From positions 682,001 to 746,000 of the forward strand of contig NZ_VISE01000001.1 in the NCBI RefSeq assembly GCF_007827275.1: a stretch of DNA of 64,000 nt. Direction: 5' to 3'. The stretch is from Gillisia sp. Hel_I_86 (GTDB taxonomy: Bacteria; Bacteroidota; Bacteroidia; Flavobacteriales; Flavobacteriaceae). The stretch's first letter is position 1. Each line of letters begins with the position of its first letter. Shown piece after piece: positions 25,301-59,330 of the stretch. A program made the translations under genes and the position numbers. The notes under the pieces were generated by a model. That model made no database searches, had not been told where the DNA came from, and saw only the letters and a program-made list of their open reading frames with translations.

Positions 25301-25327
25301 TACTAATGTATTTAATTATTTTTAAAG

Positions 25328-25399
25328 TAGTCCGTAGGGGAATCGAACCCCTGTTACATGGATGAAAACCATGCGTCCTAACCCCTAGACGAACGGACC
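25328..25399 (-). tRNA. tRNA-Glu (anticodon TTC), copy 1
   Basis: Minus strand acceptor GGTCCGT pairs with ACGGACT (first pair G-U), anticodon stem CATGG/CCATG around loop TTTTCAT gives TTC, and T stem AGGGG/CCCCT. CCA is not encoded. Identical to the copy at 25444. Confidence 0.95.
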
Positions 25400-25443
25400 G
25401 TTTTTTAATCCTGAATCCAGAATTGGTATTTCAATATTTATTG

Positions 25444-25515
25444 TAGTCCGTAGGGGAATCGAACCCCTGTTACATGGATGAAAACCATGCGTCCTAACCC
25501 CTAGACGAACGGACC
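25444..25515 (-). tRNA. tRNA-Glu (anticodon TTC), copy 2
   Basis: Base-for-base identical to the tRNA at 25328, 116 bases away in the same direction; the spacer between them is not repeated. The 248-base stretch 25516-25763 next to it shows no gene or clear signal. Confidence 0.95.
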
Positions 25516-56190: not shown

Positions 56191-57072
56191 CTAGCGCAAT
56201 CTATGATTTTCCCTTGCCAATAAAGTGTTCTTAAGCAACATGGCAATCGTCATTGGTCCAACCCCACCTGGCACAGGCGTTATAAATGAAGCCTTTTTAC
56301 TTACATTTTCGAAATCCACATCCCCAGTAATTCTGTATCCTCTGGGAGCATCTTCATCCGGCACCCTGGTGATGCCCACATCTATAACAACGGCATCATC
56401 TTTTACCATCTCTGCTTTTAAAAATCCAGGATTTCCCAAAGCGGTAATAATAATATCTGCTTGAGAAGTGATTTGGGTGATATTCTTAGTGTAACTATGG
56501 GTAACTGTAACGGTAGAATTCCCCGGAAACCCTTTTCTGCCCATTAAGATACTCATAGGCCTGCCCACAATATGGCTACGGCCAATTACAACCGTGTGTT
56601 TTCCTTTTGTCTCTACTTTATATCGTTCCAACAATTCTAAGATCCCATATGGGGTGGCAGGGATAAAACTACTCATATCCAAGGCCATTTTTCCAAAATT
56701 GGTGGGATGAAAACCATCTACATCTTTATCTGGATTCACGGTAAGCAATACTTTTTGAGTATCTATTTGTTCTGGAAGTGGTAGTTGGACGATAAACCCA
56801 TCGATATCTGGATTTTCATTTAGTTCCTTTATCTTTTTTAAAAGTTCGGTCTCACTAATGGTACTGGATAGTTTAACCAATGTCGATTCAAAACCTACAC
56901 GCTCACAAGCTTTCACTTTACTATTCACGTATGTTAAGCTCGCACCGTCATTCCCAACAATAATAGCTGCCAAATGTGGCACTTTTTCCCCTAGATTCTT
57001 CATTTGCTGAACTTCCGCAGCAATTTCATCCTTAATTTCGTTACTTACTTTTTTACCGTCGAGAATAGTCAT
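56191..57072 (-). CDS. folD: Bifunctional methylene-THF dehydrogenase/cyclohydrolase
   Basis: 293 residues. It interconverts methylene-, methenyl- and formyl-tetrahydrofolate. YVNSKVKACERVGFES holds the catalytic Lys, then IVQLPLPEQ, KDVDGFHPTN, and VVIGRSHIVGRPMSILM and PVPGGVGPMTIAML of the NADP domain. FIPATPYGIL replaces the common PCTP. Followed on the minus strand by R8 and the terminator at 56003. Confidence 0.96.
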   Translation of the reverse strand: MTILDGKKVSNEIKDEIAAEVQQMKNLGEKVPHLAAIIVGNDGASLTYVNSKVKACERVGFESTLVKLSSTISETELLKKIKELNENPDIDGFIVQLPLPEQIDTQKVLLTVNPDKDVDGFHPTNFGKMALDMSSFIPATPYGILELLERYKVETKGKHTVVIGRSHIVGRPMSILMGRKGFPGNSTVTVTHSYTKNITQITSQADIIITALGNPGFLKAEMVKDDAVVIDVGITRVPDEDAPRGYRITGDVDFENVSKKASFITPVPGGVGPMTIAMLLKNTLLARENHRLR

Positions 57073-57084
57073 GTTTTTAGTATT

Positions 57085-57111
57085 CAGTTGGCAGTTGGAG
57101 TTGGCAGTTAT
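57085..57111. repeat. Heptad array H2, left flank of the four-helix-bundle gene
   Basis: On the plus strand CAGTTGG at 57085 and 57092, then AGTTGG, then CAGTTAT. On the minus strand the units are AACTGCC-like, read outward from the gene. It touches the gene's stop codon. Confidence 0.75.
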
Positions 57112-57479
57112 TATGCCTTAACTCCAAATTTACCAGGATTATTAATCATAAAATTTAGAAGTTTCCCTACTTCTTCACTTTTTGTATTGAAATCTTCAAA
57201 TTCCAACTTTCTAATATATCCACACTCATTGGCAAAGTGCCACCAACTTTGTGTTTCTGGATTCTCAGAATCACTATCCCTTAATTTACTTCTGAAGTGA
57301 TTGGGGTAACTTCTCTTCCTGTATGCTTCAGCTATATTAAAACAAACCGATCGGGAACTTCTTCTAATCTGGTCTGTTAAACTATAAGTCTCCTCTTTTG
57401 GAAATCTTTTCGAAATTTCAAAAATTTCCATAGCCAGTTCAAAAGCAATATGGTAAGACTTCAAAGATTTAAAATCCAT
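57111..57479 (-). CDS. Four-helix-bundle protein of the S23/IVS-protein (Avd-fold) family
   Basis: 122 residues, starting MDFKSLKSYHIAFELAMEIF, then FPKEETYSLTDQIRRSSRSV, NIAEAYRK and SWWHFANECGYI: the four-helix-bundle proteins first seen in 23S rRNA intervening sequences and related to Avd of diversity-generating retroelements. It is not within an rRNA gene and no reverse transcriptase is in the window. Function of free-standing members is unknown. The gene is bracketed by inverted 7-nt repeat arrays (57085-57111 and 57492-57531), and this module fills the folD-ffh gap almost exactly. Confidence 0.93.
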   Translation of the reverse strand: MDFKSLKSYHIAFELAMEIFEISKRFPKEETYSLTDQIRRSSRSVCFNIAEAYRKRSYPNHFRSKLRDSDSENPETQSWWHFANECGYIRKLEFEDFNTKSEEVGKLLNFMINNPGKFGVKA

Positions 57480-57491
57480 ACTTTAATATTT

Positions 57492-57531
57492 ATTGAACAC
57501 TGAGACTGCATACTGAGAGACTGCATACTGA
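57492..57531. repeat. Heptad array H3, right flank of the four-helix-bundle gene
   Basis: Plus strand ATTGAAC, then ACTGAG, ACTGCAT, ACTGAGAG, ACTGCAT, ACTGAAC. The G of each TG falls at 57495, 57502, 57508, 57515, 57523 and 57530: steps of 7, 6, 7, 8 and 7. It reads outward from the gene, inverted with respect to the left flank. Confidence 0.75.
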
Positions 57532-57532
57532 A

Positions 57533-58861
57533 CTATTTCATCCCCTTCATCATTTGCATCATTTTTTGGCCACCGCCGCCTTGCATCATCTTCATCATTT
57601 TTCCCATTTGGTTGAATTGCTTCAATAATTGGTTTACTTGCTGAACCGAAGTCCCGGATCCACCGGCAATCCTTTTCTTTCTAACCGAATTGATCAGCGT
57701 TGGGGTACTTCTTTCCGCAGGGGTCATGGAATATATAATGGCTTCTATATGTTTAAAAGCATCATCATCAATATCGATATCCTTTAACATTTTTCCTGCT
57801 CCCGGGATCATTCCCATTAAGTCCTTCATAGAACCCATTTTCTTGATCTGGTGCAATTGCTTGAGGAAATCATCAAATCCAAATTGGTTCTTGGCGATCT
57901 TTTTCTGAAGTTTTCTGGCCTCTTCTTCATCATATTGCTCCTGCGCTCTTTCCACCAAGGAAACAACATCTCCCATCCCCAAGATCCTATCGGCCATACG
58001 GGAAGGATAGAACACATCTATGGCATCCATTTTCTCTCCTGTACCAATAAATTTGATTGGTTTATTTACCACCGATTTAATCGAAATTGCCGCACCACCA
58101 CGGGTATCACCATCCAATTTCGTAAGGATCACCCCATCAAAATTCAATTTATCGTTAAAGGCTTTTGCGGTATTCACCGCATCCTGACCAGTCATGGAAT
58201 CCACAACAAATAAGGTTTCTTCAGGTTTTACAGCAGCATGAATATTTGCGATTTCCGTCATCATCGCCTCATCTACAGCAAGACGACCGGCGGTATCTAT
58301 AATAACCACATTAAATCCGTTTTGCTTGGCATGGGCAATGGCCGCTTTAGAAATAGCAACAGGATCCTGGTTCCCAACATCGCTAAAAACCTCAACTCCT
58401 ATTTGCTCTCCAACAATTTGCAACTGATTGATCGCCGCAGGACGGTATATATCACAGGCAACCAAAAGTGGGTTCTTGTTCTTTTTTGTTTTTAAGAAAT
58501 TAGCCAGTTTTCCGGAAAAAGTAGTTTTACCACTTCCTTGTAGACCAGACATTAAGATCACAGAAGGATTCCCGGAAAGATCTATTTCTTCCATTTCCCC
58601 TCCCATTAATTGGGTAAGTTCATCCTTGACCAATTTCACCATAAGTTGCCCAGGCTTCAATGCAGTTAATACATCTTGACCTAAAGCTTTTTCTTTTACA
58701 GTGCTCGTAAATTCTTTCGCTATCTTATAGTTAACATCGGCTTCCACCAAGGCCCTACGTACTTCCTTTAAGGTCTCGGCAACGTTTACTTCTGTAATCT
58801 GCCCATGTCCCTTTAGGATGTGCAAGGCATTATCTAACTTATCGCTTAAATTATCAAACAT
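57533..58861 (-). CDS. ffh: Signal recognition particle protein Ffh
   Basis: 442 residues: N domain, G domain with GLQGSGKTT (106-114), then DTAGRLAVDEAMM and TKLDGDTRGGAA, and a Met-rich M domain ending KMMQMMKGMK. It binds 4.5S RNA and signal sequences and targets membrane proteins to FtsY. A TAAATTTG -7 box lies at 58906-58913. Confidence 0.97.
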   Translation of the reverse strand: MFDNLSDKLDNALHILKGHGQITEVNVAETLKEVRRALVEADVNYKIAKEFTSTVKEKALGQDVLTALKPGQLMVKLVKDELTQLMGGEMEEIDLSGNPSVILMSGLQGSGKTTFSGKLANFLKTKKNKNPLLVACDIYRPAAINQLQIVGEQIGVEVFSDVGNQDPVAISKAAIAHAKQNGFNVVIIDTAGRLAVDEAMMTEIANIHAAVKPEETLFVVDSMTGQDAVNTAKAFNDKLNFDGVILTKLDGDTRGGAAISIKSVVNKPIKFIGTGEKMDAIDVFYPSRMADRILGMGDVVSLVERAQEQYDEEEARKLQKKIAKNQFGFDDFLKQLHQIKKMGSMKDLMGMIPGAGKMLKDIDIDDDAFKHIEAIIYSMTPAERSTPTLINSVRKKRIAGGSGTSVQQVNQLLKQFNQMGKMMKMMQGGGGQKMMQMMKGMK

Positions 58862-58989: not shown

Positions 58990-59330
58990 TTATTGTTATT
59001 TGTAATATGTAATCGCCACCTGAAACCTGTTCCTTGTTAATGGTTATTTGTTATTTGTTATTTGTTATTTGTAAATTGTAAATTGTTTGTTGTTTGTTGT
59101 TTGTTGTTTGTTGTTTGTTGTTTGTTGTTTGTTGTTTGTTGTTTGTTGCTAGATGTTAGATGCTAGATGCTAGATGCTAGATGCTAGATGCTAGATGTTA
59201 GATGCTAGATGTTAGATGTTAGATGAAAATAACCAATAACTATTAACCTATAACTGTTTGTTGTTTGTTGTTTGTTTATCACTGAAAACTGCCAACTGAA
59301 AAGTGTTTACTGTTTATTGTTTATTGAAAA
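58990..59330. repeat. Heptad array H4: about 340 bp of 7-nt-periodic DNA with changing unit
   Basis: Between divergent/tandem ffh and argS. Unit types in order: GTTATTT, then AAATTGT, TTGTTTG, CTAGATG (with TTAGATG variants), then ATAACCA-like, TTGTTTG again, and ACTGAAA/ACTGCCA/ACTGTTT/ATTGTTT. The G of TG falls at every seventh base from 59050 to 59225 without a break (26 units), although the unit changes three times. After a phase slip, AAC is spaced 7 through 59229-59256 and TG recurs at 59256, 59263, 59270 and every 7 from 59284 to 59326. Weaker 7-nt spacing reaches back to 58995. No coding. Confidence 0.9.

Follow-up and report, generated by a model that had tools for sequence, protein, structure and literature searches.

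Why does a small gene of the S23 family, named after the protein of 23S rRNA intervening sequences (IVSs), stand between two protein genes of Gillisia sp. Hel_I_86 with inverted arrays of 7-nt units on either side, and could the gene and its arrays together be a mobile element? The gene lies in a stretch of 64,000 nucleotides (contig NZ_VISE01000001.1, positions 682,001 to 746,000; hereafter the window, with positions counted from its first letter), in which a first-pass annotation, made from the sequence alone, had seen a possible mobile module with heptads resembling terminal inverted repeats. This idea is supported as a family-wide tendency by the periodicity and inversion of the flanks, by the covariation of arms and protein, and by empty sites. 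On balance, we consider it probable that the S23 gene and its two arms form one compact mobile element of ~450 bp, a free-standing relative of the IVS, with S23 recognising its own arms; both the recognition and the movement are what we infer from these comparisons, the movement from the distribution of the copies.

An S23 gene between inverted heptad arms

The S23 gene (57111-57479, minus strand) encodes a four-helix-bundle protein of 122 amino acids (aa) that matches PF05635 (E = 9.3e-30, 103.4 bits, cut-off 33.8) and TIGR02436, ‘four helix bundle protein’ (94.5 bits, cut-off 24), and its AlphaFold model consists of four long helices (mean pLDDT 94.5), in agreement with the fold first assigned to it. 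The upstream (5′) arm, on the same strand, comprises 35 bp of CAGTNNN units read along the gene (57498-57532) and includes a perfect 15-bp duplication, GAGACTGCATACTGA, at 57502-57531. The downstream (3′) arm, also on the minus strand, comprises 31 bp of ACTGNNN units (57080-57110), inverted with respect to the upstream arm, with CAGTTGG-type units at 57085-57109 abutting the 3′ side of the S23 open reading frame (ORF). The module fills the gap between two genes that lie outside the element and that we take to be ffh (the signal recognition particle GTPase; 57533-58861, minus strand, upstream) and folD (56191-57072, minus strand, downstream); all three genes are co-directional, and the two neighbours served as anchors for the site survey described below. 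The inverted heptads on both sides and the filled folD-ffh gap, both described in the first-pass annotation, are therefore as it had them.

The upstream arm stops near the S23 start codon and the downstream arm ~8 bp ahead of the folD start codon, as they might if the heptads were only operator or leader sites through which S23 controls itself and the downstream gene, with no mobility involved; a translational role has been proposed for TAACTGA heptamers (MacGregor 2015, in the accessible text of PMC4679880). Given the inverted pair of arms, the empty sites, the relatives at other loci, and the copies inside genes and rRNA, we regard regulation alone as improbable.

The window's genome (4.25 Mb) holds 10 PF05635 matches, some of them partial or broken, and by eye 8 or 9 of the 10 have their own repeats on both sides, with a unit that differs from gene to gene. 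Among these S23 loci, L004 has period 8 and L010 has repeats that are ambiguous by eye.

Periodic and inverted flanks across the S23 family

We assembled 281 S23 frames (E < 1e-5, loci up to L345), of which 248 were complete; 245 of these had 150-bp flanks, and 240 were distinct. This set is mostly from Bacteroidota and includes two loci (L275 and L282) that entered through a heptad pattern search, which introduces a small bias. For 60 Flavobacteriaceae S23 genes, the identity at lag 7 was 0.385 upstream and 0.358 downstream. Lags other than multiples of 7 gave 0.26-0.32, and the values for comparison were 0.289 within the S23 gene and 0.247 and 0.263 at a distance of 500-900 bp. Lags 14 and 21 were also elevated, and lag 28 slightly; lags 7, 14 and 21 were seen as well in 25 loci spanning Bacteroidota. 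The lag-7 excess at 170 S23 genes (0.095 and 0.077) compares with 0.029 and 0.046 at other gene ends, where the strongest cases are solo arrays. The ends of S23 genes are thus far more heptad-periodic than those of control genes, as the module first proposed would have it.

Flank periodicity was significant in 181 of the 240 S23 genes (141 with period 7, 30 with period 8, and 10 with other periods); with somewhat different flank windows, the count was 165 (132 with period 7). When each upstream flank was aligned with the downstream flank of the same gene in reverse complement, inversion was significant (at least 99% of shuffles) at 172 of the 240 S23 genes; among 187 control ORFs drawn from these loci, 21 reached that level. 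Chance similarity in AT-rich DNA is excluded by the lag profile, the shuffles and the distance controls. Read from these alignments, S23 genes have arms of tandem 7-nt units, 8-nt in some clades, on both sides, and the arms are usually inverted. Arms of period 8 occur at L004, L026, L286, L303, L314, L325, L333 and other S23 genes, and L064 has a long period-6 CAGTCT array, its orthologues having period 7.

Arm sequence and period in relation to the protein

We compared arms between pairs of S23 genes without detectable protein homology between their flanks, with at most 400 pairs sampled per bin of protein identity; the pairs are not independent. A less strict filter, on the longest neighbouring ORF, had passed an orthologous pair (L328/L172) and was replaced by this one. 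The fraction of pairs with an arm score of at least 16 was 2.5% at protein identity below 40% (0.7% in a reversed-orientation control), 4.8% at 40-45% (control 0.7%), 4.8% at 45-50% (control 1.5%), 14.5% at 50-55% (control 2.0%), 22.4% at 55-60% (control 5.3%), 37.1% at 60-65% (n = 143, control 16.1%), and 55.8% at 65% and above (n = 43, control 34.9%). An earlier test of protein against unit, which used a crude unit finder, gave a weak result. On the S23 tree, the period changed 8 times among 62 context-independent loci (48 with period 7 and 14 with period 8), compared to at least 9 changes in each of 500 shuffles; with all labelled loci there were 13 changes, compared to at least 24 in 200 shuffles. 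Judging by these comparisons, S23 proteins that are related but encoded at unrelated loci tend to have the same arm sequence, and the period follows the protein tree.

Filled and empty ffh-folD sites

We surveyed 42 ffh-folD loci, of which 13 come from the 16 genomes of the genus (the window included) and 29 from the family genomes with the best FolD match out of 60. An S23 gene is present in 11 of the 42 (gap 449-525 bp) and absent from the other 31 (gap 18-245 bp), so that the site free of the module, looked for since the first-pass annotation, is the common state. All 11 filled loci carry CAGT before and ACTG after S23, with a single ACTG copy at L197. By eye, two empty sites (L183 and L187) retain ACTGCCA-like scraps, and L183 belongs to a genome (G005) without any S23 match. 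The site is also empty in a genome (G007) with a FolD that is 97% identical.

The nearest relatives of the window protein by identity are a mix of ffh-folD copies and copies at other sites. Off-site relatives with CAGT/ACTG arms on both sides are L282 (64% identity to the window protein, in G031) and the second S23 gene of L115 (51%); L065 (65%, in G024) has only the ACTG side near the gene, and L324 (60%, in G034) has CAGT at least 75 bp upstream and one ACTG within 90 bp downstream. In the genomes of L282, L065 and L324, the ffh-folD site is empty (L202, L199 and L205, respectively). For the S23 copies between ffh and folD, the ratio of non-synonymous to synonymous substitution rates (dN/dS) is 0.08-0.26 in 9 of 10 pairs, with dS above 1 (saturated) in several; by this measure the gene is under purifying selection at this site. 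At two ffh-folD loci (L177 and L180), the S23 gene is shortened.

Copies inside methylase-type genes

The genes that hold two of the S23 copies (L068 and L076) are DNA methylase genes (PF01555) resembling type III Mod genes, and the one that holds a third (L079) is a type IIG-like restriction-modification gene. The host frame of each is offset by two from the S23 frame and runs without a stop through the arms and the gene; the median number of host-frame stops over the 240 S23 genes is 13, and zero was found only in these three. The distance from the GEPDI motif to the next motif is 23 aa in S23-less homologues (L348/L354 and L349/L353), and by eye equally short in L350-L352, compared to 160 aa in L076 and 167 aa in L068. 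Measured against these homologues, L076 and L068 carry 137 or 144 additional aa, inserted in frame. A gene that is 75% identical to the host gene of L076 (L347) also holds S23, and L068 and L076, being at the same point of related genes, may descend from one insertion. Because the host frame is open throughout, the in-gene copies appear to be kept in the message and read in two frames. In the type IIG-like gene (L079:2-3310), heptad-like arrays are also read as protein (RAASGEWRV..., AARQSPLAES...), and a doubled LLPSPTGRGAGGEG repeat is followed in frame by DUF559; this domain may be a similar repeat-associated insert.

Plasmid and ribosomal RNA copies

A tblastn search of plasmids gave 29 records, mostly cyanobacterial, out of which we sampled 13 loci, 11 of them cyanobacterial. 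Inverted arms were found in 9 of the 13 by the shuffle test, significant periodicity in 11 (the exceptions being L359 and L367), and, by eye, heptads on at least one side in 12 (the exception being L359). The Nostoc edaphicum plasmid copy has GGGAGTA units and lies between two ribonucleotide reductase genes; of the cyanobacterial plasmid copies L356, L358 and L365, those from two species lie between cas6 and cas4, and the other has cas10 and a cmr3 gene as its neighbours. Four loci from records labelled other than Bacteroidetes (L141, L169, L174 and L175) look alike by eye, the labels of metagenome-assembled genomes (MAGs) being uncertain. The Azospirillum copy (L367) lies within large-subunit rRNA (RF02541, 2056 bits); its left arm reads GAGGACG GATGACA GAGGACG GAGGACA and extends into the ORF as called, and its right arm is matching and inverted. 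Taking all these copies together, S23 presence is patchy at a given site, with copies between genes, in a 23S rRNA gene, and in methylase-type genes.

Orientation and an RNA-level alternative

Among 72 context-independent S23 loci, both neighbours are co-directional with S23 in 50, both are opposed in 3, and 19 are mixed; for 236 S23 loci, the corresponding counts are 191, 6 and 39. For the 11 annotated cyanobacterial plasmid copies they are 7, 3 (L355, L359 and L360) and 1, so that the sense bias is less marked in this group. G outnumbers C in the upstream arms (3094 to 1652) and C outnumbers G in the downstream arms (2767 to 1839), but in some members (L100 and L126) the units are flipped relative to the gene.

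The sense orientation would be explained if the element acted at the RNA level, that is, if the arms paired in the transcript, RNase III excised the S23 RNA, S23 bound that RNA, and copies entered new sites via RNA. In line with such a route, the heptad arms of the Azospirillum IVS pair into a long terminal stem in the predicted fold (z −10.6, compared to z −3.9 for the window element), and the S23-bearing IVS of Coxiella is cut by RNase III in vitro, according to the accessible text of PMC4990558. However, the host frame is open through L068, L076 and L079, as expected if the element stays in the mRNA, the variable NNN letters differ between the ffh-folD arms and so allow only short stems, the units are flipped in L100 and L126, the three cyanobacterial copies just mentioned are antisense to both neighbours, and no reverse transcriptase was detected in S23-rich genomes. 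The flipped members and the dual-frame copies lead us to hold recognition at the DNA level likelier than at the RNA level; the RNA route, which we consider unlikely, must still be taken seriously as a rival, given the sense bias and the rRNA copies.

Heptad arrays in genomes with and without S23

A compound heptad array without S23 lies between ffh and argS (59034-59330, no strand assigned), ~1.5 kb from the S23 gene. As the first-pass annotation had reported, it contains ACTGAAA and ACTGCCA units, at about 59281-59301; it also has inverted GTTATTN arms (59035-59062 and ~59227-59254), both with period 7, that enclose TTGTTTG and TAGATGC arrays, so that several heptad families are nested. The array is putatively related to the S23 gene; that annotation had thought a part of the protein family in making or moving heptad DNA conceivable.

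We counted the pattern (AGTNNNN)x5 in 60 Flavobacteriaceae genomes, where one long array gives several matches. Besides the window's genome, 17 of the 59 genomes have no S23 gene; 12 of these have no match and 4 have one. Of the 42 S23-bearing genomes, 31 have at least two matches and 3 have one. At least two matches thus occur in 1 of 17 genomes without S23 vs. 31 of 42 with S23 (Fisher p = 1.5e-6; rank correlation 0.66), with neither genome size nor kinship controlled for. Of the 10 S23-null genomes of at least 2.8 Mb, 9 have at most one match. A period-8 control pattern matched in 15 of the 60 genomes and is not neutral, because some period-8 arrays adjoin S23 genes. Random 20-kb stretches contained 0 strong period-7 arrays in S23-null genomes (18 stretches) and 1 in S23-rich genomes (20 stretches), numbers too small for a decision. 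Solo arrays score 14.7 against S23 arms of their own genome and 12.6 against arms of other genomes, with few arms per genome. For the role in making arrays, then, the correlation with S23 presence stood, whereas a clear match of solo arrays to resident arms did not. Of the S23-less intergenic inverted pairs, 43 were found before filtering and 4 have period 7 or 8 in both arms; under a looser rule, S23-less hairpins are sense in 15 cases, antisense in 4 and mixed in 1, in a sample that lies near S23 genes and has terminators mixed in.

The weak match of solo arrays, which lie far from S23, to the resident arms is what a merely passive association would give, with the arrays arising as slippage products and S23 genes inserting into them or hitch-hiking with them; heptamer repeats are also over-represented in several bacteria, in the accessible text of PMC4692102. 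We judge this very improbable, given that arm sequence and period track the S23 clade across unrelated loci, that the order is inverted on the two sides, and that the tested pattern is nearly absent from S23-null genomes.

The S23 protein and its relation to retroelements

The best matches of the window model in a Foldseek search are 2gsc (TM 0.79-0.86 across five chains) and 2rld, followed by Avd, a protein of diversity-generating retroelements (4dwl, TM 0.76, E = 6.2e-3). Five chains are listed for each of the two solved S23 relatives. Five polar residues are near-invariant among 254 sequences (Q37 in 254, E75 in 253, N48 in 252, E51 in 252, and S44 in 251), followed by R40 (235 of 254). In the model, helix 2 spans 34-54 and helix 3 spans 59-85 and includes E75; from their spacing, Q37, S44, N48 and E51 would lie on one face of helix 2. 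A Pfam search of the window protein returned PF05635 and a sub-threshold bAvd match, and no HUH, DDE, serine recombinase or tyrosine recombinase domain; a search with a defence-system library gave no match.

The hint of a retroelement in the first-pass annotation was not borne out. The window protein shares the fold of Avd and has weak profile matches, but it scores under the cut-off for both Avd (24.1 bits vs. 80) and the Pfam profile bAvd (34.8 bits vs. 40). Avd is part of a ribonucleoprotein, according to the titles of structures (8ub7 and others). Avd is not known to have heptad arms. No PF00078 match was found in several S23-rich genomes (among them G021, with 16 S23 matches; G020, with 11; and G039, with 10), which argues against a reverse transcriptase acting in trans. 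No reverse transcriptase stands beside the window S23 gene, the nearest of the 16 PF00078 matches in the same genome being more than 100 kb away. These 16 genes (including C1:851136-851807, with many in C1:3.39-3.46 Mb) all have frames of 421 aa and score almost the same, and are perhaps a recent group II intron burst. Elsewhere in the window, two tRNA-Glu (ttc) genes form a 116-bp tandem duplication (25327-25515).

Discussion

The repeated ends, inverted and particular to each gene, have the look of recognition sites, for which S23 is the sole candidate protein. We propose that S23, which is pentameric in solved relatives, would recognise the repeat unit in its own arms at the DNA level, with one subunit per unit, and would bring the two ends together, much as a transposase does on its terminal repeats. 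The trp RNA-binding attenuation protein (TRAP), which forms a ring and has many short sites at even spacing, offers an analogy for one subunit per repeat, although the protein is unrelated to S23. The element would move rarely, either through host replication and repair or through an activity of S23 itself, seated at the five near-invariant polar residues. Its arms would lengthen and shorten by slippage and decay after loss of the gene, and the sense bias would arise from dependence on host transcription, with copies that oppose an operon dying out.

Several observations weigh against a mobile S23 element. Significant periodicity is absent at 59 of the 240 S23 loci (75 with the other flank windows), and 67 of the 187 control ORFs pass the same test, 41 of them with period 7. 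Significant inverted arms are absent at 68 of the 240 loci and at 4 of the 13 plasmid loci, and direct-arm matches occur at 37 of the 240 (7 of 187 controls) and in the plasmid loci L356 and L366. The reversed-orientation control of arm similarity climbs too at high protein identity, in part because some members carry flipped units, and the 3 of 11 antisense cyanobacterial copies count here as well. Neither an insertion junction nor a target-site duplication was found, filled and empty ffh-folD sites being too divergent for the ends or a target duplication to be defined, and the retention of S23 between ffh and folD across several genera implies that movement is rare or old. One S23-null genome (G070, contamination 6%) has 25 pattern matches, and 8 S23-bearing genomes have none. 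The weakest link is the solo arrays: for only 2 of 18 does the match to arms of the same genome exceed 95% of the draws made from others. Finally, the accessible text of Rehm 2015 (PMC4692102) places the GGGAATC repeats of Xanthomonas at rather conserved positions and not generally with mobile elements.

In the RAYT-REP/REPIN system, a gene is bracketed by its own inverted short repeats, and gene-less inverted-repeat derivatives occur elsewhere. The S23 gene likewise stands between inverted, gene-specific short repeats, and S23-less inverted-heptad hairpins exist, although the solo arrays match resident S23 arms weakly. The S23 arms are, however, tandem 7- or 8-mers and not one palindrome, and S23 has no known transposase domain. 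The heptamer repeats of cyanobacteria go by the name STRR. Together with those of Xanthomonas (PMC4692102) and the TAACTGA repeats (PMC4679880), they resemble the arms in being 7-nt tandem units that are mostly intergenic; the main texts of these two papers mention neither S23 nor a helix bundle or four helix protein. The former describes many close inverted pairs in Xanthomonas (70 and 75 cases) and states that detailed literature on heptameric repeats was lacking as of 2015, and the latter leaves the origin of TAACTGA repeats open, both in their accessible text. A close likeness is to the IVS: in Coxiella, two or three tandem GACAGAT heptamers, plus GACAGAA, precede the S23 ORF, which has a 28-bp terminal stem around it, and the origin of the IVS is termed unclear (accessible text of PMC4990558). 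Both this IVS and that of Azospirillum have, like the window element, an S23 ORF between complementary ends with heptad units, whereas the window element lies between protein genes (ffh and folD) and not in a 23S rRNA gene, has CAGTNNN/ACTGNNN arms that pair only in short stretches, and involves no rRNA processing. In the literature that we searched, with subscription journals mostly outside coverage, we found none linking non-rRNA S23 genes to heptamer arrays. We place the S23-heptad element in the IVS kind.

A bolder proposal, which we put forward tentatively and think more doubtful than not, is that S23 is the protein of a new minimal class of mobile elements, whose pentamer would read the 7- or 8-nt repeat and catalyse strand transfer through Q-S-N-E and E, with a range covering Bacteroidota, Cyanobacteriota, Pseudomonadota, Gemmatimonadota and probably more phyla. 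The IVSs would then be copies that landed in rRNA, the heptamers of cyanobacteria, Flavobacteriia and xanthomonads would be ends or by-products, and copies would survive in protein genes with both frames open. The dual-frame S23 copies inside methylase-type genes are remarkable in their own right.

Many bacteria have annotated free-standing S23 (‘four helix bundle’) genes to which no function is assigned, and the tandem heptamers of cyanobacteria, Bacteroidetes and others have so far been without a source (accessible texts of PMC4692102 and PMC4679880). The element described here may explain where these puzzling 7-letter repeats of many bacteria come from. The link makes S23, the IVS and the heptamers each testable, with the repeat as the presumed ligand: the repeat should be predictable from the protein clade, and no repeats are expected where a genome has no S23 gene.
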